DNA from: Agapetus fuscipes | Lineage: Eukaryota; Arthropoda; Insecta; Trichoptera; Glossosomatidae | Assembly: GCA_951799405.1 (NCBI GenBank) | Contig: OX637350.1 | Span: forward strand, 1,597,852 to 1,661,851 | DNA length: 64,000 nucleotides | Reading direction: 5' to 3' | Shown: piece after piece, positions 14,001 to 56,000 of the stretch | How positions within the stretch are numbered: the first letter of the stretch is position 1 | How the letters are laid out: each line of letters opens with the position of its first letter | The notes under the pieces: model-generated | Told to the model about the DNA's origin: nothing | The model's input: only the letters and a program-made list of their open reading frames with translations | Database searches by the model: none | Program-made: the position numbers and the translations under genes

Positions 14001-17000
14001 GTTGTGTGATGTTTTGTGATGTTTTGTCATGTGAAGTTTTTTCATTGTGATGTACTTTCCTGTGATGTTTAATGTTTTATCATGTGATGTACTGTCATTG
14101 TGATGTTCTGTCATGTGTTCTTCTGTCATGTGTCGTTATGTCATGTACCGTTTCATCACTGTGTCGTTCTATCATGGAACCGAAATGCGAATTGGCATTT
14201 TAAAATGAAAAACAGTACCGTTCTTGGAGAAGTGAAATTTTTCGTTTGAATGGTTTAAAAATGCGCCTAAATGCAGGCAATATTGCATTCTATAATATTA
14301 TATTTTCAACTTACGAAGTCCTGTAGATTCCATACGACTGGCTGTATTAACGGTGTCGCCGAACAAGCAGTATCTTGGCATTTTCAGTCCCACAACCCCT
14401 GCACAAACTGGTCCTAAAAGTAAAAAAAAAAAAAACAGAACATCATCATCATCATCTTGGCTCGACAGCCCTGGGTGGGTCTTGGCTGAATCCAGGATTA
14501 TCCTCCACTCTCGCCTGTCCATCGAATTTGCTCTTCAGCTACGTATGTCTGCTTTGACTGCATCTGCGCTCACACAGTCCATTCATCGTAATTTTGTCCT
14601 TCCTGGGCTGGAAGTCTCATCACTACGGTAATTCTTACCTACCGAATATCGGTAATATTTGTATGAAGACTAATCAGCTGGTCACTTGCGGCCGTCTTGG
14701 ATTGACAGGTCTCATACGAATTTTACCGATATTCGGTAGGTAAGAATTACCGTGGTGATGAGACTTCCAGCCCTGGGGTGGAAGTTTCGACAACTGTCGC
14801 TAGCTGTCACCGTACCTTTTTGAAGATAAGACGGAATGAAACATGGTGGTGACTGAACAGCTGATCGTTGTTCCAGATAAAGGGTATCATCCGTTGATAC
14901 GCCGCCATATTTTATTTCGTCCTGTTTTCAAATAAATACTGTTATGTAAATATAAATATTGAAATAAGTATGGGTAGTTATAGTGTTATGTAAATATAAA
15001 TATTGAAATAAGTATGGATAGTTATAGTTATAAGAATTCTCTAGGCTAAGTAGGTATTTGTTATAATTATAGGAATACTGTGTTACATTTGTAGGTAGGA
15101 TTTTGGTTGTATCTCTAGGTAGTACGTGAAGCGTCGAGAAGTAATAATTACTCTGGAACCGTCTGGCGACTTTAGTTCTGGATCATACTGCTCTGAAGAG
15201 TATAAAGGTGCGAATGGCCTGCAGAGCGGGCCAGTATCATAGAGACTTACAAACACATCGAAGTCATCTGATCAGTGAACCAAAACCAAGTGGAATAATC
15301 GAGAAAGTAGTGTGAAAATAAATTTTGTAACTGTGTAAAATAAATAACTATTGAAGAAGACCTGTGTATTTTTAATTTGAAGACAATTGAACCCTAATTT
15401 CGTAACAATTGGCGTCAGGTGCGGAATTGTCAAGAAAAATTAAGATCTTCTGTCTAAAAATAAATAAAATAAATTAAATAGTGTTAAAATGAACTTTATT
15501 CAAATTGAACTTTGTGTGAACTGACTTTTGTGAAAACAAGTGTTTAAATAAATTTTTGTTAAAAGAAAAGACGCAAAAGCAAGTTGCTTATAAATTCTGG
15601 AACGTCATATGGAACATAATTCTGGACATAACATAATGACTATTTTACCGCATTGAGAAAGTCATCAAATTGGACCATAGTTTTTTATTATTGTGTGTGA
15701 TTAAAAAAATAAAATAAATAAATAAAAATCTTGAAAAAAAAAAATATTACAAAAGAACGTTCCAGATTCATCGTAAAAAAGTTTTTGAATAACTGTGCTT
15801 CGTTTACAAGTGTGTGAATGTACATTAAGTACCTACCTGTGTGTTGGAGAGACTTGAGACGAAATAAATAATTATGTACTATCAGACATTATTATGTTAA
15901 AAATATTGGTGATTTAAAAATAAATATTAAAAGACAGTACCTACCAATCAGTGTAATCAGATAAATTATTATTTTGCTAAAGTACGTATTCAAAACAGCT
16001 ATATATATAAAACTCAAAACTTGTATTAAATAAATTTAAAAATATTTTCGTTTTGAAGTAAATTTAAAAAAAAATGGCAACCAAAGTGAACGTCAAGGAC
16101 CTCAAAGTCACAGAGCTTAAAAATGAGCTTCTGGAGAGGGACCTGGAGACCTCAGGAGGAAAGGCGGCCTTACAAGCACGCCTCATAGAGGCCTTGGAAC
16201 AGTCAGGCGAAGACCCGGCATATTTTGTCATGGCGTCTGGAGGGGACCGCGCCTTGGACGAGCTAAATATCAGCATCACAAAGTCCATGAAGGAGGAGCT
16301 AACACACAATGCCAAGACCCTGGAGGAGAAGATGGCTGACAACGCCAAGACCCTGGAGGAGAAGATGGCTGACAATGCCAAGACCCTGGAGGAGAAGATG
16401 GCTGACAACGCCAAGACTATGAAGGAGGACCTGGCAACCATGGAGGAGAAGATGACCAGCAACCTGACCGGGCTAGAGGAGAAGATGACTGGGCTGGAGG
16501 AGAAGATGACCAGCAACCTGACCGTGCTGGAGAAGAAAGTGGCAGAAAGCTCGCGAGCAATGTCAGAGATTGAGGCCCGTGTGGCAAGCCTGGAGGACCG
16601 TCTGCGTGCCGAGCTGGCTGACAAGTGCCAGATGGAGTCCACCAGAATCTCCCCCAAAGGCGGCCTTCACGACGAGACCGACCAGGGATGCTCAACTCCA
16701 ACCAGGGTCACAAGAGGGGATGATGACCCTTCCCTAGCAAAGCACAACCTCCCAACCTTCGACGGGAAGACGTCGTGGGAGGAATACTTGACCCTCTTTG
16801 AGACGGCTGCCATGATGGGAGCCTGGAGCCAGCAGAAGAAGGCTTCGGTTCTCAGCCTGTCGCTCCGAGGAGACGCTCTCAGGGTTCTGCAGGCCATACC
16901 CCTGGACAACCGTGGTGACTTTGGGCAGCTGAAGCAGCGCTTGGATATGCGCTATGGCCACAAGTGCCTGGAGCAGCTGTACAAGTCGCAGCTGAACACA

Positions 17001-20000
17001 AGGGTGCAGAAGCCCAACGAGAGCCTCCAGGAGTTTGAAATGGACATCGCCCGCCTGGTACGAGACGCTTACCCGACAGCCTCCGACGACATCTGTGAGA
17101 GCTTGGCAGTGGACAAGTTCCTAAATGGATTGCGGGAATGGGAGACGCAACAAGCCGTAAAACTGGCCCATCCCAAGGCTTTGAACGAGGCGCTCAGCCA
17201 AGCTCTCGAGTTTGAGGCTGTCAAACAGTCCATCAGGGGCCACGCCAGGGTTCGTGCAGTCGAGGCAGAGGAGGTCAAGCTACCTACAACCGAGGAGCTA
17301 ATTGAAAAAGTGCTGGAACGTCTGAGACCTCGAAGACGAGACCCACGCTGCTGGAACTGCGGACAGCTGGGCCACCTTAGCACCAAGTGTCCCAAGCCTC
17401 AGAAACCCAGAAAACAGGCTGCGGAAAACTAGAAAGGGTTAATGGGAAGGGGCAACCGTTGACCCACGCTGGAGAGGCCCTAAAATCTGCTGCTACTGTC
17501 GCAACCGTGAGAGGAAAAGCCAGCAGCATTTTTATCAATGGCATAATAGATGGAGTAACTCGTGAACTACTGGTGGACACGGGAGCAACCAGGACAATTC
17601 TGAGACGCGACATAGTGGCACGAGGTAAGCAGATTGCACCAACAAAGTGGTCTCTGCACACCGCCACGGGAGAGTCAGCACAGGTGTATGGGGAGACGAT
17701 TGCCACCTTCCAAATTGGCAGCACCACTTTTGATCATCGGACGTTGGTGGCCAACATTGAAGAAGACGTTATATTGGGAATGGACATACTGGACAGATTT
17801 GGGTGCAGTTTAAATTTAAAGAAAGGGTCCATTAAAATTGGAAATGAAGAAGTCATCCTGCAAAGACGGAAAGAACTGGCTGCACGTGTTATCCTAGCCA
17901 AGAATACCGAAGTGAAGGGGCGATCCGAGATGATAGTGAGTGCCCGCCTGGATTCCAGTAGTACAAATGACCAAATCTGTATGATAGAACCGGAGAACAT
18001 GGACAATGGTAACAAAGGAGTCATGGTGGCAAGAACAGTGATTCGCGCAAAGGAGACCATTCCTGTCAAGATCATGAATGTGAACAGCTACCCAGTTAAA
18101 ATGAATGAAGGTTTTGTTTTGGGCAGATGTGAGAGGATAACTTCCATTGTGCAACAGATGACAAACATGTCATGCGAAGGAAACAAATTGTCAACACAAT
18201 TGGAAGCCCTGGTCCACGACGCTTCCCAAGGTCTAACCGAGGAAAACAAACGGAGAGTGAGGAGTTTGATCTGCCGCTACCAGAACATTTTCGAGGACTC
18301 TAATGGCCGTCTGGGAAGAACCAAGGTAGTGCGACATAGCATAGACACCGGAGAAGCGAGACCAATAAAACAGGCTCCAAGAAGACTACCCTTTGCAAAG
18401 CGGGAAGAAGCTGACAAGATCATCAAAGACATGAGCAAGGATGGCATCATAGAACCATCAAGTAGCCCTTGGACATCCCCGGTGGTACTGGTGAAAAAGA
18501 AGGATGGTACCACGAGATTTTGTGTGGACTACAGACTGCTCAACGATGTTACGAAAAAGGATAGTTACCCTCTGCCAAGGATTGACGACACCTTGGACAC
18601 ATTGGCAGGATGCACCATTTTTTCCACATTGGACCTGAAAAGTGGCTACTGGCAAGTTGAATTGGATGCCAAAGATAAGGAGAAAACTGCATTCTCGACT
18701 GGATCTGGACTTTGGCAGTTCACCGTGATGCCATTTGGCTTATGCAATGCCCCCGCCACGTTTGAAAGGCTGATGGAGAATGTGCTGCGAGGACTATCAT
18801 GGGAAACCTGCCTGGTATACTTGGATGACATAATCATCCTGGGAAAGGACTTCAACCATCAGTTGAGAAATCTGGAGCAAGTTTTCGGGCGACTACAAGA
18901 CGCTGGACTGAAGCTCAACCCGAAAAAGTGTAACCTGTTCAAGAAACAAGTAAATTACCTGGGACACATAGTTTCTCAACGTGGAGTTGAAGTTGACCCT
19001 GCCAAAATCAAGGCAGTAAGAGACTGGCCCGTGCTGAAGGACAAACATGAAACTAGGAGTTTCCTGGGGCTGTGCACTTATTACAGGAGGTTTGTGCCAA
19101 GATTTGCGGACATTGCAAAACCGCTCACCAAGCTTACGGAAGAAAACACTCGCTTCCATTGGAGTGATTCCTGCGCACAAGCATTTGAAGAGCTTAAGGG
19201 AAGATTAACAAGTGCCCCCATCTTGAGCTACCCACGAAAAGATGGAAAGTTCATCCTGGATACCGACGCTAGTAATGTGGGGATAGGAGGCGTCCTTTCC
19301 CAAATACAGGATGGGCATGAGACTGTTCTGGGTTACTTCAGTAAAGTGCTTTCCAAGCCAGAACGAAATTATTGCGTGACCAGACGAGAGCTTCTTGCCG
19401 TGATAAAATCAGTGGAACACTTCCGCAAATACTTGTACGGGAGAAAATTCACACTACGGACTGATCATGCTGCACTGGTTTGGCTTCTGAAATTCAAAAA
19501 CCCAGAAGGGCAAGTGGCTAGATGGATTGAAAGGCTCCAGGAGTATGATTATGACTCCGAACATAGACCTGGCACGCTTCATCGAAATGCGGATGCATTA
19601 TCCAGACGACCATGCGCCAGTGACTGCAAACATTGCAGCAAGATGGAGGACAAGGTAGCAATTGTCCAAAGGACGACCACCGAAGATGAGGACTGGCAAG
19701 ATGAAAAATTGGCGCAAGACCAACTGAATGATCCGGACTTGAAGTATGTGATGGAATGGGCGCGAGAAGGAGAAAGGCCAACCTGGGAAAAACTCGCCCC
19801 CTTATCACCAACTGTCAAGGCTTATTGGGCTCAATGGGGATCCATAGTGATAGAAGGAGGGTTTCTGAAACGAAAGATCGAGAAGGAAGACGGCACACTT
19901 AGAAGAAAGCAAACCCTCGTTCCGAGGAGCCGAGTACCGGAAATCCTTGGACTGCTGCATGGAGGAACTTCTGGAGGACATCTAGGCGTTAAGAAGACGC

Positions 20001-23000
20001 TGGAGAAAGTGAAAGAGTGATTTTACTGGATCAACTGCAGCGAAGACGTCAAAGATTGGTGTCGAAAATGTGTAACCTGTGCAACGGCCAATGGACCGCA
20101 AAGGAAAAGGCGAGCACCAATGCGTCAGTACAATGTTGGCAGCCCCTTTGAAAGAATTGCCATCGACATAGCTGGCCCATTTCCTACAACTGAGAAGGGT
20201 AACAAGTACATCATGGTGGTGATGGATTACTTCAGCAAGTGGGTGGAAGCTTACTCAATCCCTAACCAAGAGGCCGTAACCGTGACTGAAGTTCTAGTTA
20301 CCGAATTTATCAGCAGGTTTGGCGTACCCCTGGAATTACATTCTGATCAGGGAAGGAACTTTGAAGCTGCTATCTTCCAGCAAATGTGTGAGCGGCTAGG
20401 GATCTACAAGACCAGGACCACTGCGCTACATCCACAGTCTGATGGAATGGTGGAAAGGATGAACCGTACCGTGGGGAGGTACTTAGCCAAAGTAGTGTCC
20501 AGCCATCAGCGGGACTGGGACCGACATCTGCCTTTGTTCTTATTGGCTTACCGGTCGGCTGTTCAGGAAACGACGAAGAAGACTCCCAGCAGCATACTGT
20601 TTGGGCGAGAAATGCGACTTCCTTGTGATCTCAAATTTGGCTGCAAACCAGGTGAAGACCTAGCCGGAGAAGACTATGTGACAGACCTTCGCAGGAGGCT
20701 GGATGACATCCATGATCAGGTCCGCATGAACATCGGGGAAGCCAGCGATCAAATGAAGGAGCGCTATGACACCAGAGCTGACAGCATGGGGTACAAAGCT
20801 GGTGACTGGGTGTGGCTTTTTGACCCCAAGAGGCGCCAAGGATACTGTCCGAAACTTCAGCGTTCCTGGGACGGGCCGTACGAGATCTTGGAGCGCATCA
20901 ACGATGTGGTCTACCGCATAAAAAAGAGACCAAACGGAAAACCAAGGGTCGTGCACTACAATCGCCTCTCACCATACCTAGGCGATAATGATGACCAACC
21001 AGCCCAAAAAGTACGACAGTGCGTCGCATCCGAAAGATCACTAGCCTTTGAGACGTTTTGGGAGAACGCGAAGGCAGGGCAGAAGTTTCGCCATGGAGTG
21101 ACCACAGAAGTCCACAAGGACTTATTTGAGGTCACTAGGGACCACACACTGGCATGCAGTGTACCGGAAGATCTAGATATGTCTAGAGGAATTGCACGGG
21201 TCTTCCGATACAAATTCGGAGAACCGCAACCCTCGAGCAGCCCGCAAGGAAGAGCTCTGAGACTACCGAAGGGGCGTCAACAAGCATACTGCCTGGTTGT
21301 CCCGGATTCCAGCAACCTGGAAGAGGACTACAAGGCATTGTGGGACGGCCTTGTTGAGCTGCGTGACTACATGTTGGAGGATCAGCAGGCGCGTCTGGCA
21401 ATACCGAAGATGGGTGGCGGCCGCGCTAATCGAGACTGGCGGATAATCCGGAGTATGATTGAAGCAGTGTTCTCGGGAGTCGGCATCAGCGTCATGGTGT
21501 GCTGCGAGCAAGCGCAGCCGAGAACCAGTGGGGAGAAATCCGTGGACTGCCACTTCTTCCTGACCACAGGGTGTCGACGTGGATCAGCATGCCCCTACCT
21601 ACACAGAGTCAAGACTGTTCCGGGACGAAACAGTCTAGGTGGGGGGTAGTGTTATGTAAATATAAATATTGAAATAAGTATGGGTAGTTATAGTGTTATG
21701 TAAATATAAATATTGAAATAAGTATGGATAGTTATAGTTATAAGAATTCTCTAGGCTAAGTAGGTATTTGTTATAATTATAGGAATACTGTGTTACATTT
21801 GTAGGTAGGATTTTGGTTGTATCTCTAGGTAGTACGTGAAGCGTCGAGAAGTAATAATTACTCTGGAACCGTCTGGCGACTTTAGTTCTGGATCATACTG
21901 CTCTGAAGAGTATAAAGGTGCGAATGGCCTGCAGAGCGGGCCAGTATCATAGAGACTTACAAACACATCGAAGTCATCTGATCAGTGAACCAAAACCAAG
22001 TGGAATAATCGAGAAAGTAGTGTGAAAATAAATTTTGTAACTGTGTAAAATAAATAACTATTGAAGAAGACCTGTGTATTTTTAATTTGAAGACAATTGA
22101 ACCCTAATTTCGTAACAATACAATAAAATCGACTGACGGCCATCGACACTTACAAACCTGGGCTCCTTTGACCTTTTGGTGTTTGAAAGTGCTTAATAGG
22201 GTTATAGTTGTCCATTCTACTTTTGTCACCACAAATCCCATCGGGCTCTGTAGATACAAAAGGGCATACAGTCTCTCCTTGGTCGTTTGAAATTTGAGAC
22301 TGGACTTGGATGAAAGACGTGGTTCATGAGTTATTCTGGACAGTCTTTGGGGTGATTGGAGGTCCTTGCAGGACACTCACCGAAGGAGATGGGAATAATT
22401 GGTACCTGAATGGATCCCTATGCGAAGTCTGAGTTGCTCCAGAGGACGATGTCTAATCCTGAACCTCCTCACGGCCGCCAGGAGATGGAGGGACATGGAG
22501 GCGATCTCTGCAGCATGCTGGTCACCATTCCGAATAGGCAAACCACTGACCTGGAAATATTGGATACACTTTGTGAGAGATAACCTATTCCCAATCTACT
22601 TTCCTACAAGTTGCTTAACATGAAGCTGAACACCACTCCAACAAGTGCTATAGACTTCTAGATTCTCTGAAATCTTCCAGATTTTCTGAGTCTTCCAAGG
22701 AAGATTCCGTTAAAGAATCATCAAATAAGTTATGGCCCTTTTGTTCCTTCACTAATAGGTTGGCCAATGCCACCCCAATTTCAGGGAAAGGCGGTAGAAG
22801 TTGCAAAGTTTATGTTCATGTGAGGTTTGGTTTATTTTGTATGTACATATGCTGCTGCATGTGCTGCAGCACGTGTAAGTGCAAACTTACATACGCCAGC
22901 TTGTGGACATGAGTTAAATATTAAATATTATAACTTCTTAGGTTGCTAAAATGAAAGAATCTTCCTTGCGATGCTTAGGAAAACGTAATAGAGTCAACCC

Positions 23001-26000
23001 AAATACCATAGATGGCATAGACAAAATTTTCGTGACGTTAAACGGCCACCCAGCCATAGCTTTACTAGGAACTTGGCTACCTATTTTTTGTATAGATTGC
23101 TAAAGGCGATGATTATAATAATAATAATAATAATTGATTCATAAAACTGTTTTACAGAAGATTAACATAGGGTGCAGCTTTTTAACTTAAGTAAGAAAAT
23201 AATACATGTGCCTGAACTAGAAAAACCTGTGTCTCAGGCGTGGGTTTTCCTAGTTTATGATGATGATGAGTTAATGATTTATTTATAGCGCCGTTTCGTG
23301 ATGTAGTCACTCCAAGGGCGCTGGTGCAAATGTTGCCAGAAATTTGTATGTCTTCAGTGCATTCCGGAACTTTCCATGGTCCTCTAGCTCTTTCACATGA
23401 TGTGGCAGGTGGTTCCAGTCCAGAAGACCAGCAACTGCGAATGCACGCTCTCCAAGCATTGTGTTAACTCTTCTTATCGGTTCTTCAATCTTGGATTTGA
23501 ATTACGCTAGTCGACATTTGTCCGCCGAGAAATTTAACATTCAATTCGAGTCCGTTATTACAAATAATACTTTAGCATTTATATTGAAATTGAATTGCCT
23601 TAAGTATTTTCTTCTATCGAAATTTCGTCAAAACCTTTTTGAGTTTAAATTGTATCCAGTCACCCTCATCATGGCTTTTGCTCGGCACGAGAGTGCTTTA
23701 TTCAAATAAATAGTTCGGCGACCTCGTCACAATCTTCATTATTTCAAAGGACAAATTGAAATTGAAATGAGACAGATGCCGTACCGCACCATCTGCTATC
23801 TCTTGCGCTCTTCAATATCGTCAACTTTATTGATATCTTTGTGATGAAATGAATGTTCCGTTGACTTAAAATATATGTGGACTAGAAACTAAGTAATTTG
23901 ATTAGATATATTACATAGTTCATTTGAGATTGGGTTTTTATAATGTAGGTCCACATGCGGCATGTGCTAGCGCGAAATTATACATGTCTGCTTGTGGGAA
24001 TGCATTTAATATAAATCTTAAATGATATATATCCTTGCAGCTTAGATTAGATTAGATTAGATACATTCCCACGATCAGACACGTATAAGTTCGCGCTTAC
24101 ACACGCCGCATGTGGACTTACAACATAAAACCCCAGAAATTATTGTCACAAATTGAATATTTATTTCACCTCGAGTACTTTCGACTTGCTTACGTCATTT
24201 TCTCTACTCCATGTTTTTTTTTTTTAATTTTATAAATCCTCGAAAAATGAATTTTTAACTGTGTGAATACACAAACTCTGAAAAGTTCATAAAAACCAAA
24301 TCTCAAATGAACCTTAACCCTGCAACTCTTGCCAACCTTCCCTGAAACAGGACAGTGACATTGGCAAAGTGAAGCATTTTTTACAGTACCTACCTATGGG
24401 TGGTCAGCCTCATACCAATCTATTAGTCAACTTGAAATATAAAATGGAGGAAGCAAGAAAACATAAGATTTCCCATGATTATTAAGTATTCTAAAAAAGG
24501 TCGATAGCTCAATTGTTAGAATGCTTGCATTCCATGCCAAGAGCAAGGGTTCGATCTCAAAGGCTTACTCAGCCTTCACAAGAAATGAGAACCAGCCCCC
24601 CGGGAGCTGGGAAACCCTCACTTCAACTGAAAGTGGTTGATGTGAGGCCGACCCTCTTAACTGTAAAAATAAATAGGTCCCGAAGCGCCACATGCGACCA
24701 CCTTCGGGGAAACGCAACCAAGAAGTTACACTATTTGTGTAGCTTAGTTGCGTTTTTTTTGCGTAGCGTGCTGGTTAACAGGTGAACCAAAAGTATGTAT
24801 CACAGATCACGGAATATAAAGTATGTATCACAGATCACGGAATATAAAGTATGTATCACAGATCACGGAATATAAAGTATGTATCACAGATCACGGAATA
24901 TAAAGTATGTATCACAGATCACGGAATATAAAGTATGTATCACAGATCACGGAATATAAAGTATGTATCACAGATCACGGAATATAAAGTATGTATCACA
25001 GATCACGGAATATAAAGTATGTATCACAGATCACGGAATATAAAGTATGTATCACAGATCACGGAATATAAAGTATGTATCACAGATCACGGAATATAAA
25101 GTATGTATCACAGATCACGGAATATAAAGTATGTATCACAGATCACGGAATATAAAGTATGTATCACAGATCACGGAATATAAAGTATGTATCACAGATC
25201 ACGGAATATAAAGTATGTATCACAGATCACGGAATATAAAGTATGTATCACAGATCACGGAATATAAAGTATGTATCACAGATCACGGAATATAAAGTAT
25301 GTACGAGTATCATAGCCGAAAGCTTGTTTCTTCTCCATCAAGATCATTACTCAATGGAATGCTCACTTTTGAGTTTAATTCGTTTTAATTTGTAGGGGTA
25401 AATTTCAGGCAATGTTACAGGAGATATTTCATCGGGACGCAAAGAATTTTATTAGCATTTCCGTGTCGAAGCCTCACGCAGGAAATGAGGTGTGTTTCAT
25501 CTCAGCTATGTTTCAGCGCGAAATTTATTGCCGACATTTTTCATTACCTGAAAGACGAATTCTAACGAGTGTAACATTTATTTCATCGCTTAAACGTGTA
25601 GCGTCAGAAATGTACGGCAGGTAATGAAATTCTTCGCCTTTTAATACATTATATTGTTATGAATATGCAAGATATTAGTAGTTGTGTTTGGTTTGTCTGT
25701 GTTAGTTGAATAAGTCTATGAAATCTCTAGAAATGAGTTGAAGCTTAGGTAGGTACCTAATAATAGTTTATATTTCGCACGTTTAATAATAAAGAGCAAT
25801 AACTCGAAAAACAAAAATGTTGGGAAATCGCGTTTGAAGTTCAGACACCCAGTACAACTTGTATGGGATGAAAAAGGCGGCCGATGTTTATCTCGGTCAT
25901 ATTCGTCCAAATTGAACGGCTGTCGCATTCTACCTATTCTTCTCGCATTGTTCTTGCGTTTTATTACAAAATCTCGATTTTCCTAATTTTCGAGTTATTT

Positions 26001-32000: not shown

Positions 32001-35000
32001 TATAAATGTTACTTTACACTTATTTTGGCCCTTTGGGCGCGGGGGCCCTGGTTCGGTCGCACCGCTCAAACCACCCTTAATCCGGGCCTGGTCAGGGGCT
32101 CAGCTGGAAAATGTATGAAGAAACACAAAACTTAGTATGCGCATAGCTAGTAGCGATAATAATGATGAAAATAATAATTCATTGTTAATTGAGAGTCTTT
32201 GAATAATAAAATAGTACCCGCGAAAGTCATAACGATGTCTTTAGACTCCACCACCTCCCTCAGGTTATCTCCCCTTTAGACTCCTAGTCCGTTAGGAGAC
32301 GCAACTCACCACCATGTAGGCGTCCCCGATGGTCTCCACTTTGTAGACGTCGTAGCTCTCGATAATGGAGTCGAAGCACGTGTACAGGTCGTTGAGGAAG
32401 TCCACGACCTGAAATTGCAGCAGAGGAATTTAAAGCCGACCCAGCACAATCTGCGGAAGCTACTTTTCCAAACTGCGCTGTTTACGGGATCGCAAGTTTT
32501 TTTTATGACTTGCTATTTGTTTGGTTTTGTTTCAAGGGATATTTATTTTCATCCCATTATATGATAATTGATAAATAAGTATAAATGTAAGAGAATGTAT
32601 CAATTTTTGAATTTCGAAAAAATAAATGAACTTTGAAGAAAATCAATTTGAGTAGATTTGAAAGGTATAAGATAACACCTAGGTACTAAAATGGTAACTG
32701 TTTTTAAAACTTATTTTTCTATTCCCATTTGGTAATTTACTCAATAAAAAACGTCGAATGATATCATAATGCGATACATTTATACAGCCTGTTGAGTAAT
32801 GGTTATTACGAAACGGCCAACAGGTGTTGAAATGATTTTTTTTTAATGCGTCATCATTTTTTACATGGGACTGCTTTCCTTAGCAACCAATAACAAACTA
32901 TTATTCTACTGCCAAGAAATGAGGGTCATTGTAACATAAGTGCTAGTTTGTGCCATGGGCAAAGCCGAATAGCAACGAGTGTTACAATGACCGATTTCGT
33001 GCAGTGGCTTACAATACTTTATTTTTTTATATGTTTAACTTGATTAAAAGAACTGTAATAAATTGCCTTCATGGATGAAAGTTAAAAATGACGCGAGACG
33101 CCCCCCTACCACGATGTCAAACATATTTTTATTTTTATTTTACGACAATTTTTAAGTTCAAACAACTGAATTTTGCAGTCAATGCCAAGAAACTATTTTA
33201 AAAGTTTTCATTGTAGTACAATTGACTTGTTTTGAAATGATCATTACGAAACGACCTGTGGGAATGATTAGCTTTGTGTTATGGTTTGCTGTTTTGTATT
33301 GAGTAAATTACCAAACGGGTGTAAAAAAATATTTTGTACGGTTTTTTTTTTCAAAGATAAACTAGGCCATTTTTTATTGTACATATATTTCACCTGCAGT
33401 GGCGTACTCTCGGCTGACATGGAAGTAAAGCCGACAATGTCACTGAAATAAATTGTCACACAGTCAAAGTTCTCGGGATCCACTCTGTTGCCCCTCTTGA
33501 GTTGTTCCGCCACTGGACGGGGGAGCATTTCCAAAAGTAACGCCTCTGTAAAGTTAAAAATCAAAATGTGAACAGAAATCCTACGGAATTGTCGAACAAG
33601 AGGAAAATATGTTATAACTATAACAAGTAATAAACTTCTACAGATTTCTTGAAAATTATTGTACAAAATTGAGTTTTTTAGAAAAAGGTTTTAGTGAAAC
33701 TTTTTTTTACCATTCCTCTAGGGGTGACCAGAGCCTCTATCTACAATTCTTCAAATTCTTGCATACCATTTTCAATTCATTTGTACCTTACACCTTTTTC
33801 ATACCCCTCACAGTTTTTCACCCGTAAAACTAAAGGTATTTTAATTTTTGGTATGTTCAATTTGTGACATTGCACTAAATTTGAACTAACAATTCTTCTC
33901 TGCGGGAAAATATCCACAGATTTTTGTGACTAGGGTATTTAGCAACCAAAAACTAAATATTTATTAGCCATCACCTTAGCAACCCGGCCTTGTGACTTAA
34001 AAATATGTCGTAGCGATTAATTTTCTGATCTCATTTAATTTTAATTTGAAAACAACACAACTAAGCTACTACAAATCATCATCATCATCATTCTCTCGAA
34101 TCTCATTGTTTTTTCTTCTCCTTTTTCTCTTCTCCCAACTCACCAGTCTTCTTCTTCTCCTCCTGCAGCTGGTCCGTCCTCTCGTCCACCAGGACCTCCA
34201 GGTTGTTGGCGTACTTCTCCATCATGGCCATCATGTTGTCGAATATGTTGGGCTTCCTGAAAATCCATGAACACATTCTTACCTAAAGCGTTAATATAAA
34301 AATAAATCAAAAATATAAAAAGTTTTTCTTCACGAGTTCAGTTTAATATCGCCAGTGATTTCTGAGTATTGACACAACATTTTATTTCTTTATTAATTTT
34401 TAATAAATCTTCCCTGTTCACAATACAATCAATACACTATCAATGACTTAGAATTATCGTTTCACAGTTTGATATTACTGAATATACGTTGGAGCAATGA
34501 ATTCGAGAGACTGGCTATCTTTTTATATTTTATCATTCTTTGAAAGCATACAGCCACATTTTTCCACCACAATTTTGTTTTCTCCCTTTAAATCTAACAA
34601 ATCGTCTCCTTGGTGCTTTTTTGTTTAATATTCATCAAAAGTAATTTCACATAAGCAATGTTTGCATGTTTAATTTATATTGTATACTGCACCCTTGTGT
34701 CTTACGAAAATTGGAAATTGATTTTAAAAATATTCAAAACAACTCTCACATTATCGTGTTGTACTTAATTTTCTTAGCTCAGATTGTGTACGATATTATC
34801 CTTAAGACAAATTCATTGGAAGGTCATCATTGAATCAAATAATAGATAAGCCAAAACAAGCTCTGGTGGAACAAAATCTCATTGTTCGAAACACTCGGGT
34901 CATAGTTTAGTACTTCAACTTTGACCTTAACTTTGTGGACTAGTATTTGGAATACGCAGATAGTTTTTGTAGCAATTAGAAAGTTGTGTACGTGGCACTC

Positions 35001-44000: not shown

Positions 44001-47000
44001 TTATAGATAGAATGTCTGTCAAAAGGCGAAAGTTGATTTATTTTGCCCATGTTATGAGAAATACTCACTCCTCCATCTCTTCGTACAGGGTAGATTTAAA
44101 TGAAGACGAGATTCAGGTTGAAGGTGAACATCTTGGTTGTAGAACCTAATACAGTGGTTTGCACAAGATCAGCAGTATTAAAGGTGCAAACGCCTTCACT
44201 GAAGAGGCACAAAAAGCAGAATATGATTATGAAAACTAGCAGTATAGTGTAACAGACCATAAGTTTTGCTGGTTCCACTCACCTTTAAGCTGCCCCTGGT
44301 GCAGTACTCCGTCACTATGCAGATATTGGGCGGCTCCGTGCAGGCGCCGATGAAGCCGTTCAGATTGTCGTGACGCAGGTCCCGCATCTGTCGGTAATAA
44401 AAACAAAAGAATAAACCCAAATCTCAAATGTAAACCCTGCAATCTTGCCAACCTTCCCTATAATGACATCGGCAACAGTGAAAAATTTTTTACTGCATGG
44501 CGGTTGGCCTCGCACCCACCTCATAGTCAAAACTAGACAAATCTGATATTATATTGTAACGAGCGTATGGTAGTATTAGTTCATACGTGATCCTTATCAC
44601 GCTGGTGGAACAACTTTGTGGTACTGATATCATCCAATATGTTCGAGAAATCAAAAACTGTCGAGAAACGTCCTAATGAACGTATATAAATGTAAGCCAA
44701 TTGTGTGCAGGCTACAGAGTCGATTAAAACATTGAGTCGTGAAGTCGAAAGCAAGAACTAGAAATCAGTAAATTGTAAATTGTGAACCAAACCATGTAAA
44801 ATAAATTCTGTTAAAATAAATAATTGCAGTTTAATTAAAAGAGAACCTAAACAAAATCTAAGCCCTAAAATATAGTATGATCTGATCATAACCAAAGGTC
44901 CATCAAGCGCCTTACAGAAAATAGGTCTTCCTTGAGAATTGGCGCTTTCTACAGCGATGACCAATCTCGCAGTGGGCTTTAGAGGTGTGATTCACACAAA
45001 AACAGCGCTCACCAAATAAATTAGCGTAATAATAATAAGTTCATTTGTATGGCGCCTTTTCATGACCCTTGGTCATCCCAAAGGCGCCATTAAAATGATT
45101 ACAAGGACATTACAATTTTGAGTTGCTTCTTCATCTCCCTTGTGATGTCAATGGACTTCTTGCGCACCCTCTTGAGCGCCAGCAGCCTGCCCTTGTACAC
45201 GCCCACCTCCGTGAAGATGGACGAGTAGCGGAAGTCTGCGTCAGGGTTGGAGCTCAGGGACACCTGGCTGGTGCGGATGAACGGCTGGATGGCCTGCAAT
45301 ATGGACACAAAGCCAACATTAAAGACAATTCATGTAAAAATGACGACGCCCACCTCCGTGAAGATTGACGAGTAGCGGAAGTCTGCGTCAGGGTTGGAGC
45401 TCAGGGACACCTGGCTGGTTTGGATGAACGGCTGGATGGCCTACAATATGGACACAAAGTCAAAGAAAATTAATTTGAAAATATATTGTAACGAACGAGT
45501 GATTGTGTGTGTTTTATGTGATTTGAGTCCTTGACTTATAGTTGGAGTACAAGGTCTGCTTAACTGTATTTAAGTCCTCGCAGAACATTGCGCCACTGTA
45601 TGTCCCAGAGCTATGTGTGGGGGACACAATAGGCGGTAGGCAGGGGACTTTGAGATCTGCATGCAGCACTGCTATGAATAGACTAAGGCAGCGGTTCCCG
45701 AATGGTGTTCTGCGGAACCCTGGGGTTCCGTAGAAGGCTCTCAGAGGTTCCGCGAAAATATTCAAGATTTCGATGTTTTTTTTCTAATTCTAGCTATTTT
45801 AAATCGCTTTACTCGTACCTTTGATATATTTAGATATAGAAATGGTAATTTTATAAATGAACGTAATTATTATCTTAATTTAAAATACTGTATTCCGAAA
45901 TTCCGTTTAGTTTAGTTCCATTTGTGTCAACTTATAGATGCGAGGCTGGGTTTTCAGCTTACGCCTACACGAAAAATAAGTTTAGGAGTAGGCTGAATGC
46001 TGCACCAGACCTCTGAATCCAATTGTCAGACATAAAACCTGACTTCAATGTTATTTTGTCAAAAACTATGAAAAGATTTCATTCTTCACATGAAGTTCAT
46101 CTAACTAAAGTAAATATCTTTTTGTTATAACTAAATAAATATTTTTATCTTAAAAAGTCTTTCTTTTAAAGTCAAACTATATTTACAAAATGTGAACACC
46201 AAGCCAAAAAGCCTCTTATCAATCTTACGTAAAAAAAACAATGTTACAGTTAGTTTACTTCTTACTTGAGCTCTAGGCCCTACTAGACTCTAGGGCAGTG
46301 TTTCCCACGGTGGGGCGTACGCCCCACCGGTGGGGCATCACGCCTCAGAGGTGGGGCATCACGCCTCAGAGGTGGGGCACGTCGAAAAATATCAAATATT
46401 CCATTTATAAATGTATAAAACGTATATGCAAATTCACGACTTAAATATACCTATCCGCAATTTCATTTTTGCATTCTGGCAATACTGTGCATACTGGCAA
46501 TTTAAAAATCTCGAAGGCAACGCTACGGCTTAAAAACAAAGATGGCAACGCTGACTGTCAATACATCGTAGTTCGACTGTTATTTCAATTGAATAGACGT
46601 GTGACTGAGCTCTGTTTTCTATCGCAAAACACATACCCTGGACGTCTCTAGAGTAAATGTTATTGTTTTATATTTACGTAGTTATTATTGACCCTTAAAA
46701 ATCAGCATTTTCTTATTATTTATCTCTTTTAGCCCATTACAAAATGAGTGATCAACCAAAATCAAAAATAAAAAAACGTCAGTACTCAGCGGAATTTTTA
46801 AAATTTGGATTCATACCTGCTGCACACGACGAATGCCTACCTTTTTGTCTTCTGTGTGAGAAATCCTTTACGAATGAAACTATGAAACGAGGCCGACTTG
46901 AAGCACATTTGAAGGCGAAACATCATGCATTTGTTAATTCAAATATAAATATTTTTCGAAATCTTAAGGAAAAATTTGAAAAACGACCAACATTAACAAA

Positions 47001-50000
47001 TCTATTTTCTGCACAAACTGAAATAGTTGATCGTAGTCTTGAGGCTAGTTACCAAATTTCATTACTCATCGCTAAATGTGGAAAAAACCATACTATAGGA
47101 GAGGATCTAATCAAGCCATCAATATCAGCATTTCTTAAAACAGTTTTACAACAAGATGATAAACTCGTGAAGGCTATGCCACTAAGCAACACTACTGTTT
47201 GCAGAAGAATAGATCAATTGAGTGAAAACGTTGAAATACAACTTGTTGAAAAGCTGAAAACAAGAAAATTTTCACTACAAATAGATGAATCAACTTTGAG
47301 AGACAGTGAAGCCGTGTTGATAGCTTACGTAAGATATATTGATGAAGGAGAATTTGCTGAAGAAATGTTATTCTGCAAATTATTAGAAAGCACCACCACC
47401 TCCAAAGATATATTTAGTAAGCTAAAAGAATATTTAGATTCTAAAAATATACCAATGAAAAATATAATATCTTGTGCTGCAGATGGTGCCCCCAATATGA
47501 TGGGCAAGAAAAATGGTTGCTTGAAATTAATGAAAGATGAGAATCCAGAAATGACTTTGGTCCATTGTGTCATTCACAGGGAGAACCTGGTGGCTAAACA
47601 TATTTCACCTGTTCTAAATGAAGTACTATACTGTGTTATTAAGTGTATTAATACAATTAAAACGAATGCCAAATGTGAGCGTCTCTTTAAGTTATTTTGT
47701 AAAGAACAAAATGCGGACCACGTTAGGTTGTTACTTCGCACTGAAGTAAGATGGCTTTCAAAAGGAAATTCCTTAAAAAGATTAATGGAATTATTTGATG
47801 TCCTTAGTGATTTTTTAAGCAACCGACCTGATATGAAGTTTTTGATGACAGTCGACGGTAAAGCATTTGTAAGCTATTTAACTGATATATTTGAAAAGTT
47901 AAATATTTTGAATAGCCAACTACAAGGATCTAATAAAACACTTATTGATGCAAAAGCAAAGATATTTGGATTCACTACTTTTATTGAATTATCTAAAACA
48001 AATATTTGTAACCACAATTTTGAAAAATTTTACTGGCTCCAAAAATGTGCAGTGACTGATAATGCTAAAACTGTTATTTTAGACCACCTGCAAACATTAT
48101 TAAATGATTTTAAAGAAAGATTTGCTGATTTAAAAGAAATAAATTTTCCAGCTTGGTTGACACAACCATTGCTGATAGATATTTCAAAGGAACCACTGTA
48201 TCAAGAAGAACTTTCAGAAATGCAAAATGATGATTCAATGACAAATTTATTTAATTTAAAAGGAATGATGTTATGGATGTGCGAAGAAACTAACACAAAG
48301 TATCCTAATATTACTTTACATGCCAGAAATTTATTATTACCCTTTCCATCATCTTATTTGGTGGAATGTGGTTTTAGCGCCATAAGCGATTTACTTAGTA
48401 AAAAAAGAAATCGAATGGATATAACTAACAGAGGGGACCTAAGACTGAAATTGACTAAATTAAATCCAGACATTAAATTTCTTTGCAGCAAGCATTAATT
48501 AAAAATTGAAGAATGGATTATGTGTCAAGATGTGAGTGTTTTTACATTACATTTTCAATTTGTTTTGTAATAATTTCAGTTTTGTTTTTTTGTTTTGTTT
48601 TATTTTGTTTCAAAAATTATATTATATTTGCAATATAACTATGAATTATAATTATAAATAAAGATGAATAAACATTATATATGTTATATATAATTCATGT
48701 TTTAAAAATTAGCTGTTGTTTTATTTATGAAGAGTCCGGTGGGGCATATGACTTTTGAAAAGACTTCGGTGGGGCACGGCATTAGGACGGTTGGGAAACA
48801 CTGCAGTCTAGGGCCTAGCTAGGGTTCCGCACAAAAACGGTGAGCCAAAAAGGGTTCCGTAGCCAAAAGAATTCGGGAACCGCTGGACTAAGGGTTCCCC
48901 GCAGAAGCAACATGGCTAATTATTTGGATCGTGCGTTTTGCATTGTCAGCCCTCTGCTGTAGCCTTACCACACGATCTGTGGAGTAAGGTGGAGAGAGAG
49001 AGGAGGTGGAGTAATCATGTGGAGAGTGCAAATGTTTTACAATCAGAATTGAACACATGTCTGTTCAGGAGGGGCTATGGCTCTGCAGCGCCCTTGCGGT
49101 GAAATCAAAACGGCGCTAAAAGTATTGTCAAATTATAATTAAAGGAGGCTGACCACCCAAGCTGCAAAAATAGTTCGCTTTGCCAATGTCACCCCTGTTT
49201 CAAGGAAGGTCAGCAAAAGTTGTAGGGTGTATGGAAAAAAATATTTTATTTTAAATTACCTACACGTGTCTGTTTGTGGGCATGCATTTGATATGAGTTC
49301 TGAATGTTAATATATCCTCGAAATTTTGATTGCAGAAGTAGAACCTAAATACACCCAAATAGACATTGTGAGTAATTTTTGGGGACATGTAATATTGTCA
49401 GGAAAAGTGTAACTCTGCCGGCAGGGTCAAGCGCACATGCCGCCGCTGTAAATCATTAGTCAGCTCTCTACGCAGCGCCCAGGTCACGTTTCACCCCCCT
49501 CCCCGGGTGTGTGTGTGTGCTTCCTCAGGGCGTGCACGACCTTCACCTTGTGGTCGCGAGTGTAGAGCGCCGGCCCACACGCAACCCGATTACTTTTTGG
49601 ATTTAACGGTGCGTTAAATTGCCCAAGTCTAGAAAAGGCATTTCAGACGGGGATGCTTGTTAAGTGATAAGTGGCAAGTAATTAGCGATTGGGTAGCCAG
49701 TAAAACTTAGAAAGGGTGAGTTACTTTCCTTCAAGACGTGTGTACTGTACCCCAAGTATAAAAAATCTCGTGAATACCCTTGGTCGCATATACATTATTT
49801 AAAGACTGAAGTGTGTAAAGCTTGTCAGGAGTCTAGTCCACTCTATTTTTCTCTATGCTGCTGAGACATGGACCATAAAAGCAGTAGAAAAGAGAATAAT
49901 TGATGTTTTTGAAATGTGGTGCTGAAGGCGCATGCTCCGTATCCAGTTAGTAAGACAGTTAGACGTGCCAACGAATCCATTTTTCGGGAGATGCGTTTGA

Positions 50001-53000
50001 ATGGCTTGACTGTGGCCAATATAAGATGTACACGCAGTAATGTTGTCTTCAGTTATTCGGACACGCTTCCTTTGTCTAAAGAGAAATTGTTGCGGACGCA
50101 GCGAGCTTCAGAGTATTCGTTAAGCAAAAGAAGGCCCTTCTTAGGGCAACCACATAAAATGCGATAATTGCGGCGACCTCGGTATGTGTAATGTGAAATG
50201 TGGACCCTTAATAAAGAAACATGTCAACTTCAGGGTTCACTATCACAAATACCGGGGGAGCTCGTGGATTAGCAATTATTGATAAATATGTTGATTTGCC
50301 TCGTTTGTGCCGACACTCCCACGCCCCATCCCTAGTTTTCGTTCCCATCCCTATTTGTGAGAATTCCCGTTATCCTTTGTCCCGTTATCCCTTTTGTTTC
50401 CTAGAATATAAATATGTGTATGTTCTTCGAAATAAATCACTTGTTCTCCGACTTCCGACTTCTTACTACAACTCTCCGCTTTCTTCAGAACTTCGACCTG
50501 CTACTCTTCCTGACCATCACTTCAGATCTTCGATACAACGACCCGCCGCTTTGCCCCCTGACATCGAGATTTTGAATCATTGGAAAGGCAGCTGCCTTAC
50601 AACCAGCTGACAGAGGAACAGTGTGAGAAGACGGATCCAGTCCACCCGCGCCTGTAGAGCGTCAGCTACATCTGGTCCTTCGCAGCCGGATCCCGTCTTC
50701 GACAGCAAGTTCACTTCCTGATGCCTGTTAAGGGATCGTTACACGCTGAGGAAGACGTTTCAAGAAGAAATGGAAGGAGACCGCGTTGAATCTGATTCGC
50801 GATCGTCCGAATCTGGGAGGACGACGATGGATTCATCAGTGGAAGAAGTGACAATGCGTATGGTTGTGGAGCTGAAGGAAATGATGGGAGAGTTCTTCAC
50901 ATTTATGAAGGCTCACTCCATCAAAGCCGGCCACGCTGCGCAAGGAGACAAGTCAACGGAGCAACTCGCCGAGGCGGTTGCTGTGCCGGAGCTGCCCGCA
51001 CCAGGTCCCACGATTGCCGGGAATGTTTGTGGGGCGGAGCCCGGACAGAAGGAGCGCGCGGTAACTCCGGACACCGCGTCTCCTAATGATTCAGCATCTG
51101 GAGATGCTGAAGACAAAAGACTCACCGGTGAATGGGTGAGGAGTTCACAAGAACATTCACAGCCCTCGATGGAAACGACGGCCGTGGCCTTCGTAAGGGC
51201 GAAGGAGGGCGCAGCGCCAAGCGGATTCCAGTTAGAATCTAGTAGGCCTGAGGGAAAGGTGAACAGAAATGCGGGTACACAGTGTGCAATGTGTGACGGA
51301 GTGCATCGCTTAGAGCAGTGTTGTGAGTTCGCAAGGCTTGGGGTGCATGCCAAGTGGAAAGTAGCGAGACAACGCCGATTGTGCTTCGGGTGTTTGAGTG
51401 GACGTTGTCGTACGTCAAAGTGCCGCGCGCCAAAGTGTAGTGTAGATGGCTGCGCGGGCAAACACCATCGATTGCTTCATGTCCCGCGGGACTCCGAGAG
51501 TGACTCGGAGGTATTACATGCGATGCGCAGTGAGGGTGGTATGGTGCTCGAAGTCCTGCCAGTTACACTCAGGGAGCCAGAAGGGTCGTTGGATGCGCAC
51601 GACCTTTTGGACGAAGGCTCTACAGTGACGCTGGTGAAAGAAGAGGAAGAAGAGGATGCTACCCACGTAGATGCGCGTCGAGGACCGTGCTCGGGATTAC
51701 AGACCACGGGAGCAACAGGGATATGCGCGAAGAACGCAGGCTCACGGCGCGTTAGCATATCCATGAAAGGGACCACAAGTGTGTGCCACGAAGCTGTAGG
51801 GCACACAGTGACGCAGCTGCGCTTACCAACGCGCGTGGTAAGCCAGCTGACAGCAGAAGCCTCCAGTTCGGCGGAGGTTAAGCCTATGAGTCTTATGGGC
51901 TTGGACTGTGGGTGGCTAGTCGTGCCACGCGGACACGTGCAGTTCAGATGGGATGACATGATCGTGAGTGACACTTTGCTGGGCCAAGTGTCTAGATCAA
52001 CATCTGAAGCTGCAGTGTACGGTGGAAAGATTGTAACGGGTTTCTCACAACGGGTGAGACCGACAGCGTGGGTGATACGCTTCGTAGACCGCTGCCGCCA
52101 TCATTGGAAGGAGGAGCAGCTGAAGAGGTCCGGAGATTCTTGGGAATTACGAGCTGAGATCACCAACGCTGGAACAACAGGGGTGCGCCTATCCCAGAGG
52201 TGCACAGTTGGCAACATGGAGGTCCTAGGACGGGAAGAGAAACTCCCGCCCGGTAGGCGTTGGCGAGCAGTGACGCCGTACGTAGACGGAGTCAACGTGC
52301 TGCACATGGATACGCGCCTGCGGGGGACACAAAATGTTGCACGACCGTTACCAGATGTAACGGGTTTCTCACAACGGGTGAGACCAACTGCGCGGGTGAT
52401 ACGTTTCGTAGACCGCTGCCGCCATCATTGGAAGGAGGAGCAGCTGAAGAGGTCCGGAGATTCTTGGGAATTACGAGCTGAGATCACCAACGCTGGAACA
52501 ACAGGGGTGCGCCTATCACAGAGGTGCACATGTGGCAACAAGGAGGTCCTGGCACGGGAAGAGCAACTCTCGCCCGGTAGGCGTTGGCGAGCAGTGACGC
52601 CGTACGTAGACGGAGTCAACGTGCTGCACATGGATACGCGCCTGCGGGGGACACAAAATGTTGCACGACCGTTACCAGATGTAACGGGTTTCTCACAACG
52701 GGTGAGATCGACTGCGCGGGTGATACGCTTCGTAGACCGCTGCCGCCATCATGGGAAGGAGGAGCAGCTGAAGAGGTCCGGAGATTCTTGGGAATTACGA
52801 GCTGAGATCACCAACGCTGGAACAACAGGGGTGCGCCTATCCCAGAGGTGCACAGTTGGCAACATGGAGGTCCTAGGACGGGAAGAGAAACTCCCGCCCG
52901 GTAGGCGTTGGCGAGCAGTGACGCCGTACGTAGACGGAGTCAACGTGCTGCACATGGATACGCGCCTGCGGGGGACACAAAATGTTGCACGACCGTTACC

Positions 53001-56000
53001 AGATGTAACGGGTTTCTCACAACGGGTGAGATCGACTGCGCGGGTGATACGCTTCGTAGACCGCTGCCGCCATCATGGGAAGGAGGAGCAGCTGAAGAGG
53101 TCCGGAGATTCTTGGGAATTACGAGCTGAGATCACCAACGCTGGAACAACTTGGGTGCGCCTATCCCAGAGGTGCACAGTTGGCAAGAGGATTGAGGTCC
53201 TGAGACGGGAAGAGCAACTCCCGCCCGGTAGGCGTTGGCGAGCAGTGACGCCGTACGTAGACGGAGTCAACGTCCTGCACATGGATACGCGCCTTCGGGG
53301 GACACAAAATGTTGCACGACCGTTACCAGATGTAACGGGTTTCTCACAACGGGTGAGATTACTGGTATTGACAGCGTATGTGACACGCTTCATGGACCGC
53401 TGCCGCCGTCATAGAAAGACAGGGCAGCCGAAGTGGCCCGGTACTGATTGTGAATCATGGGCTAAAGACATCATCAACGTAGAGGTGATATGGGTGCGCC
53501 TAGCTCTGAGGCACACATTTGTCTACGAGATGGAGATCCTAAGACGGGGGGAGCAGCCCCCGCCTGGTGGGCGCTTGCGAGCCGTGACGCCGTACATAGA
53601 CGGAGACAACGTGCTGCGTATGGACCTGCAGGGGACTCAAAAAGCCGCACCACCGATACTGGATAGAGACGACAAGTACGTGAAGCTGATGCTAACATAC
53701 GTACATGAAGCTGCTGGACATCCCGGTGTGGAGCGCACCAGAAGTGATGTGAGGGCCAAGTTCTTCGTTCTGAAACTTTGCACAACCTTACGATGCATCA
53801 TCAAAGGCTGCCGGGCGTGCAAGATTATGCGGTGCACGCCGCAGACACCGCTGATGGGGAAGCTACCAGCTGCAAGGTTGGCCCAAGGAGAACGACCATT
53901 TAACCACTGTGGGTTAAACTTCTTTGGACCCATGACGGTGAGGATTGGAAGATGCACCGAGAAGCGGCATGGTGCACTCTTCACATGCATGACGACGCGG
54001 GCAATGCACATCGAGTTGGCAAGTTCATTGTCCGTGGATCCGACCATAATGGCCGTGAGAAGGATGGCTGCACGATGTGGCTCCCCTAAAGTATTGTACT
54101 CTGACAACGGGACAAACTTCGTTGGGGCTGACCGTGAAATGAATGCAGCCATCAAAAGCTTGAGGAATGATGCTAAATTCCTGCAATTTACGGCGTTAAA
54201 GAGGATTGACTGGAGGTTTATCTCGCCGTCATCACCGCACTTTGGAGGTGCCTGGGAACGGCTTGTTCGTTCAGTGAACAAAGCCTTGACAGCAATGGTG
54301 AAGGAGAGGTCTCCGAACGAAGAGACGCTAGTGACAGCATTAGCAGAGGCAGAAAGAACCATAAATTCACGCCCGATGACTCGCGTATCAGTGGAAGTCA
54401 AAGATGATGAGCCTTTGACACCGAACCACTTCCTGGTGGGGTCAGCGGGTGGTATGACCTCCCTGGCAAGATACGACCAGGGAGATGAGAAGACCTGCCT
54501 GAAGAGACAGTGGAGATTGTCGCAACAAATGGCAGATGTGTTTTGGCGACGGTGGGTACGGGAGTACCCCCCCACACTGGCTCAACGTCCGAAGTGGAGG
54601 AGCCCAGTGGAGCCGATTCGAGAAGGCGGTTTAGTGCTGATCGCGGACCCTAAGCTGGTTGGCCGTGTTCGCCTCAGAAGACAGCAGCGTCCGGATTTAG
54701 TACAGCAGAGACTGCACGGGGGGAGTGTTGCGGACGCAGCGAGCTTCAGAGTATTCGTTAAGCAAAAGAAGGCCCTTCTTAGGGCAACCACATAAAATGC
54801 GATAATTGCGGCGACCTCGGTATGTGTAATGTGAAATGTGGACCCTTAATAAAGAAACATGTCAACTTCAGGGTTCACTATCACAAATACCGGGGGAGCT
54901 CGTGGATTAGCAATTATTGATAAATATGTTGATTTGCCTCGTTTGTGCCGACACTCCCACGCCCCATCCCTAGTTTTCGTTCCCATCCCTATTTGTGAGA
55001 ATTCCCGTTATCCTTTGTCCCGTTATCCCTTTTGTTTCCTTGAATATAAATATGTGTATGTTCTTCGAAATAAATCACTTGTTCTCCGACTTCCGACTTC
55101 TTACTACTACTCTCCGCTTTCTTCAGAACTTCGACCTGCTACTCTTCCTGACCATCTCTTCAGATCTTCGATACAACGACCCGCCGCTTTGCCCCCTGAC
55201 ATCGAGATCTTGAATTATTGGAAAGGCAGCTGCCTTACAACCAGCTGACAGAGGAACAGTGTGAGAAGACGGATCCAGTCCACCCGCGCCTGTAGAGCGT
55301 CAGCTACATCTGGTCCTTCGCAGCCGGATCCCGTCTTCGACAGCAAGTTCACTTCCTGATGCCTGTGAAGGGATCGTAACACGCTGAGGAAGACGTTTCA
55401 AGAAGAAATGGAAGGAGATCGCGTTGAACGCAGCGAGCTTCAGAGTATTCGTTAAGCAAAAGAAGGCCCTTCTTAGGGCAACCACATAAAATGCGATAAT
55501 TGCGGCGACCTCGGTATGTGTAATGTGAAATGTGGACCCTTAATAAAGAAACATGTCAACTTCAGGGTTCACTATCACAAATACCGGGGGAGCTCGTGGA
55601 TTAGCAATTATTGATAAATATGTTGATTTGCCTCGTTTGTGCCGACACTCCCACGCCCCATCCCTAGTTTTCGTTCCCATCCCTATTTGTGAGAATTCCC
55701 GTTATCCTTTGTCCCGTTATCCCTTTTGTTTCCTAGAATATAAATATGTGTATGTTCTTCGAAATAAATCACTTGTTCTCCGACTTCCGACTTCTTACTA
55801 CTACTCTCCGCTTTCTTCAGAACTTCGACCTGCTACTCTTCCTGACCATCACTTCAGATCTTCGATACAACGACCCGCCGCTTTGCCCCCTGACATCGAG
55901 ATTTTGAATCATTGGAAAGGCAGCTGCCTTACAACCAGCTGACAGAGGAACAGTGTGAGAAGACGGATCCAGTCCACCCGCGCCTGTAGAGCGTCAGCTA

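Follow-up and report, generated by a model that had tools for sequence, protein, structure and literature searches.

A Ty3/Gypsy retrotransposon of Agapetus fuscipes with a TARG1-related macrodomain and a probable CCCH zinc finger behind its integrase

The stretch of DNA analyzed here, hereafter the window, covers 64,000 nucleotides of the Agapetus fuscipes genome (Trichoptera; contig OX637350.1 of assembly GCA_951799405.1, positions 1,597,852 to 1,661,851 of the forward strand) and carries a Ty3/Gypsy long terminal repeat (LTR) retrotransposon whose integrase is followed, in the same frame, by a domain that its sequence makes near certain to be a macrodomain related to TARG1/OARD1 (21098..21508, forward strand, as are all parts of the element for which a strand applies) and by a probable CCCH zinc finger (21548..21604). 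Both lie in the second of the two open parts of pol, an open reading frame (ORF) of 542 codons at 20021..21649 that encodes the integrase core, the GPY/F module and a C-terminal tail. This tail runs for 224 residues after GPY/F, from ORF residue 319 to the stop codon, in agreement with the stop-free extension of about 230 residues reported in a first-pass annotation of the window. Over its length the pol frame has no stop codon, whereas the two remaining forward frames contain 9 and 11; when the tail was simulated 20,000 times with a first-order Markov model, a single simulation kept this frame free of stops.

When the tail was searched against the sequences of solved structures with phmmer, five TARG1 (C6orf130) sequences headed the list with E values of approximately 6e-11 to 8e-11 (best 6.2e-11), and unrelated chains appeared only at E > 0.7; a profile made from the two Gypsy sequences available, the window copy and the second record described below, reached TARG1 at 5.8e-12. 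In the opposite direction, a profile of 32 OARD1-like proteins built without the window sequence matched the tail in hhalign with a probability of 98.4% (E 9.5e-15), and selected residues 363-494 from the whole ORF with a probability of 98.0%. Identity between the tail and OARD1-like proteins is 23-32%. A macro fold for this domain is likewise indicated by the structural matches of a predicted model, and the assignment of a TARG1-class macrodomain to a Gypsy element, already made in the first-pass annotation, was thus upheld by sequence, profile and fold comparisons together with the Pfam domains of pol. The sequence evidence for the macrodomain is independent of the predicted model. Within the tail, Pfam finds CCCH-type fingers only; no match to PF01661 (Macro) was seen in the pol pieces at E values up to 1, and several OARD1 proteins are also without a precomputed PF01661 match. 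Part of the domain is matched weakly by the DarG model of NCBIfam (24.5 bits, against a cutoff of 250), and part by a phage family labelled phosphatase (8.9e-9).

The same fusion was found in one further record, a 996-bp contig from the ENA (P0001), which carries in one frame the last 8 matched residues of GPY/F, the macrodomain and the finger, and is equal to the window in 227 of 232 residues. One of the five differences, at its first residue, is a Met aligned with a GTG codon of the window and is probably a start-codon call, so that four changes remain. Because this record holds the same joined stretch, the fusion does not stem from an error in a single assembly, and the concern that the segment might be found in a single copy is answered in part; the record may represent a separate insertion, or else the window copy in a diverged allelic form. 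It was the only one confirmed of 89 candidates obtained with the tail as a protein query. Searches of viral contigs gave no pattern match with the tail as query, 22 stretches that fit one of two patterns with the window-TARG1 alignment, and two stretches with the integrase, none of which was confirmed, and the same was true of 16 stretches obtained from genome contigs with the tail. A profile of the window and TARG1 matched 2509 proteins, the best 120 of which were the ENA record and 119 stand-alone proteins that are OARD1-like by name or likeness. Among phages, 186 records matched the domain, with a best E value of 1e-8, and none covered more than 80% of the query. A tree of 17 rows (two Gypsy sequences, 12 of the 119 OARD1-like proteins and three phage proteins) groups the two Gypsy rows but is silent on the origin of the domain beyond that, as 11 of its 14 inner branches are open and the Gypsy and phAPEC8 branches have a length of 10.

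Comparison with the ADP-ribose site of TARG1, taken from PMC6397177 (papers are cited here by accession and from the excerpts available of each), suggests that the two halves of the pocket fared differently. In the alignment, D20, L21, F22, I44 and P118 of TARG1 and both glycines of the GxG motif are identical in the window, and L47 is replaced by Val. On the side of the distal ribose, Pro, Val, Pro and Ala stand in place of S35, T83, K84 and D125, respectively, and Cys and Ser in place of H32 and C33, whose contacts are made by main-chain amides. Judged from sequence, the adenosine/pyrophosphate half of the pocket is therefore mostly retained, and all four named distal-ribose and catalytic side chains, including the nucleophile, are lost. 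The first-pass annotation had rightly noted that the catalytic pair is replaced, and had correctly placed Asp125 at its Ala436, which is Ala469 of the ORF; Lys84, however, aligns with ORF Pro428 (395 in that numbering), and the Pro429 that the annotation named is ORF Pro462, the counterpart of TARG1 Pro118 rather than of the lysine. Its residue numbers are 33 lower than those of the ORF, presumably because its count began at the Met that is residue 34 of the ORF. The published TARG1 pattern, TKx(30,35)Px[IL]GxGxD (PMC6397177), is absent, the window reading VP ... PKMGGGRA, and TARG1 with the K84A change did not rescue cells from DarT (PMC8501950). Annotation as a canonical TARG1 was rejected, as Lys84 and Asp125 are missing and the pattern is not matched, and a hydrolytic antagonist was rejected on account of the replaced catalytic residues. 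Hydrolysis by this macrodomain appears unlikely because the active half of the pocket is lost, whereas binding of ADP-ribose or of another adenine-containing ligand would be possible. The first-pass annotation proposed that the element may blunt a PARP-type defence or reach PARylated chromatin; loss of the four side chains speaks against hydrolytic antagonism, with reading of ADP-ribose, or binding of another ligand, as candidate functions.

The finger has the C-x7-C-x5-C-x3-H spacing previously described, with the Cys, Cys, Cys and His codons starting at 21548, 21572, 21590 and 21602. Its score against the Pfam zf-CCCH model is borderline at 21.5 bits for the tail alone and 19.0 for the whole ORF, for a cutoff of 20.5, and in the predicted model this part has a pLDDT (predicted local distance difference test) below 50. 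The best solved matches are the fingers of CPSF30, an RNA-binding protein (phmmer E 0.0025; 0.0037 with the two-sequence Gypsy profile). A ZAP-type finger was rejected for this reason, and the link once drawn to antiviral PARPs of the ZAP group found no support in the sequence.

Our preferred reading, to which we give somewhat less than even confidence, is that the tail acts as a non-catalytic reader that tethers the integration complex to an ADP-ribose-type ligand on chromatin. The tail would stay on the integrase, or travel with it; the macrodomain would bind such a ligand, carried by chromatin or by chromatin proteins, the bound tail would hold the integration complex at that place, in a way comparable to the chromodomain with which a chromovirus integrase ends, and the CCCH finger would contribute an RNA contact. 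Known integrase-borne readers recognize histone methyl marks or transcription factors. A bolder form of this proposal, which we regard as doubtful though worth stating, is that the element represents a Gypsy lineage in which ADP-ribose reading has taken the place of the histone reading of chromoviruses, and in which the non-catalytic macrodomain directs new insertions towards chromatin that bears ADP-ribose, sites of PARP activity being one example. The chromodomain of chromoviruses sits at the C-terminus of a Gypsy integrase (PMC3605345), and strand breaks are recognized by PARP1/2, the ADP-ribose mark then recruiting repair factors (PMC8501950).

Several observations weigh against the reader proposal. 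The fusion is known from two records, and it is not common in the part of a 5.8-billion-protein set covered by a search with ORF residues 325-542, in which none of 930 candidates was confirmed at E <= 0.001, a search whose reach was proteins of about 298-948 residues and not full-length pol. In the adenosine site, Y150 and L152 of TARG1 are replaced by Cys and Glu. Among the 62 columns conserved in the OARD1 family (in 90% or more of the 38 aligned OARD1-like rows, with the column filled in 25 or more), 37 are lost in the window, two of these as gaps, one of which is the start Met. The confident structural model leans on homologs, as a model predicted without OARD1 sequences has a mean pLDDT of 41 and no usable fold, and the window chain continues past the end of TARG1. 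Lastly, pol is interrupted in the window copy by an in-frame TGA (20018..20020), absent from the first-pass annotation, that lies within the integrase zinc-binding domain, so that PF17921 is divided between the two pol ORFs and either half falls under the Pfam cutoff; the lack of an intact pol counts against this copy being autonomous, and not against its membership in the family.

The alternative that survives best, though still rather unlikely in our judgment, is that the macrodomain has been turned to nucleic acid or A-rich RNA and, together with the CPSF30-like finger, holds the RNA or cDNA of the element, whether for packaging or through integrase-RNA contacts during maturation. The CPSF30 matches of the finger are consistent with it, as is the presence of a Chikungunya macrodomain structure with RNA (3gpq) among the fold matches, and a pocket with its adenosine side mostly retained and its distal ribose side lost would be suited to adenine nucleotides of any kind; however, there is a single finger with a borderline score, and Gag already has a CCHC knuckle.

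It is also conceivable, if unlikely, that the tail is a captured segment without a role, a passenger whose frame owes its openness to the youth of the element alone. The identical LTRs indicate little time since insertion, and the loss of the catalytic and of so many family-conserved positions, as well as the mere two records, would fit such a history. Yet the low identity to OARD1-like proteins implies a long divergence over which the frame stayed open, the ENA record is open too, and 25 of the 62 family-conserved columns, including both GxG glycines and the Trp, are retained.

We consider it quite unlikely that the tail is an antagonist of silencing, which would bind and shield host ADP-ribose marks that silence retroelements, without removing them. 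A mammalian precedent for such marks exists, as SIRT6 mono-ADP-ribosylates KAP1 and thereby promotes L1 silencing (PMC4695847), macro-domain ORFs occur in epsilon-like endogenous retroviruses of fish (PMC4977317, citing Basta et al. 2009), and the structural matches include proteins of arthropod-associated RNA viruses. This proposal nonetheless has to contend with the absence of the TARG1 catalytic residues and with the small amounts in which Pol-borne proteins are usually made. It is scarcely credible that a host gene was joined to the element through an artefact of assembly or frame. Nothing speaks positively for it other than a pol broken by the TGA, the tail sits inside the element, between the integrase and the polypurine tract and LTR with matching target duplications, and in the ENA record the end of GPY/F, macrodomain and finger share one frame.

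The borders of the element could be read directly from the sequence. Two 468-bp LTRs, of the form TG...CA and identical to each other (14940..15407 and 21650..22117), are flanked by the target site duplication ATAC (14936..14939 and 22118..22121), and because the LTRs are identical the insertion is taken to be recent. A primer-binding-site-like stretch, TGGCGTCAGG (15410..15419), is named by its position and TGG start, and the polypurine tract AGGTGGGGGGTAG (21637..21649) encloses the pol stop codon (21647-21649). The gag ORF (16074..17432) encodes a SAP domain, a DNA-binding type of domain, at the N-terminus of Gag (about 16092-16199; Pfam E=3.8e-8), 11-residue tandem repeats of presumably coiled-coil-like character (16274-16438, a 33-nt repeat in the DNA), and a CCHC knuckle (about 17346-17396; zf-CCHC E=1.6e-5). 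It overlaps by 52 nt with pol, which is in another frame and whose first open part (17381..20020) encodes an aspartyl protease, a reverse transcriptase, RNase H and the first half of the integrase zinc-binding domain; in the second part, Pfam locates the integrase core (rve; about 20144-20419, E=8.7e-16) and GPY/F (Integrase_p58_C; about 20873-20974, E=1.1e-12, ending at ORF residue 318). The two LTRs, target site duplication, primer-binding-site-like stretch and polypurine tract, and the pol order of protease, reverse transcriptase, RNase H and integrase with GPY/F, as found by Pfam with the two open pieces scanned separately, identify the element as a Ty3/Gypsy LTR retrotransposon. No further copy of any part of it was found elsewhere within the window (E <= 1e-3).

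Elsewhere in the window, a 1357-residue open frame at 50722-54795 (forward strand) has an integrase end with matches to Integrase_H2C2 (E=1.2e-8) and DUF5641 (E=3e-12), which we take to be BEL/Pao-like; no reverse transcriptase match was found in it at E<=0.01, and it contains a block starting GFSQRV in four close copies 108 residues apart plus a fifth, diverged copy; it may be a non-autonomous element in which a repeat block replaces the reverse transcriptase. An intact 599-residue frame at 46699-48498 (forward strand) without a Pfam match at E<=0.01 presumably resembles ZBED/hAT-type transposase-derived proteins. The only likely piece of a host gene noticed is a probable guanylate cyclase exon at 33268-33690 on the reverse strand (PF00211, E=1.2e-6). 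A 28-bp tandem repeat array, identical in its middle part, occupies 24678-25433, and within the window neither tRNA genes (scanned with the bacterial code) nor Rfam matches at gathering score were found.

Several known systems invite comparison. The domain resembles TARG1/OARD1, the terminal ADP-ribose glycohydrolase, in sequence, fold and most of the adenosine/pyrophosphate pocket, but differs from it in the replacement of Lys84, Asp125, S35 and T83, and in being fused to an integrase where TARG1 stands alone. With chromoviruses the element shares a reader-type fold at the C-terminus of a Gypsy integrase, a macrodomain and CCCH finger being present instead of a chromodomain, for which Pfam gave no match after the integrase at E values up to 1, and a targeting role would be assigned by analogy. 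The macrodomains of RNA viruses and phages, such as alphavirus nsP3, Kadipiro virus VP8 and phage proteins, have the same fold, though their genomes and fusion partners differ. Among viral models, the best match was VP8 of Kadipiro virus (27% identity; E 1.6e-10 in Foldseek), which we take to be a TARG1-like macrodomain in an arthropod-borne dsRNA virus; the alphavirus nsP3 macrodomains are hydrolases, whereas the TARG1 catalytic residues are absent from the window domain. The epsilon-like endogenous retroviruses of fish are also reverse-transcribing elements with an acquired macro domain gene, which there forms additional ORFs (PMC4977317, citing Basta et al. 2009) where in the Gypsy element it is a C-terminal extension of pol. 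In line with the first-pass annotation, which knew of no Gypsy lineage with this architecture, none with a macrodomain, at the integrase C-terminus or elsewhere, was described among the literature matches listed, as far as titles and abstract beginnings go and with most subscription journals outside coverage, nor is a macrodomain fused to a retrotransposon described in the available excerpts of PMC5982333 or PMC8195603.

Capture of macrodomains by reverse-transcribing elements is hence suggested to extend beyond the retroviruses. If our proposal is true, retroelement integration, or escape from silencing, would be tied to ADP-ribose signalling, and the size of the macrodomain, about 140 residues, makes the link to ADP-ribose directly testable.
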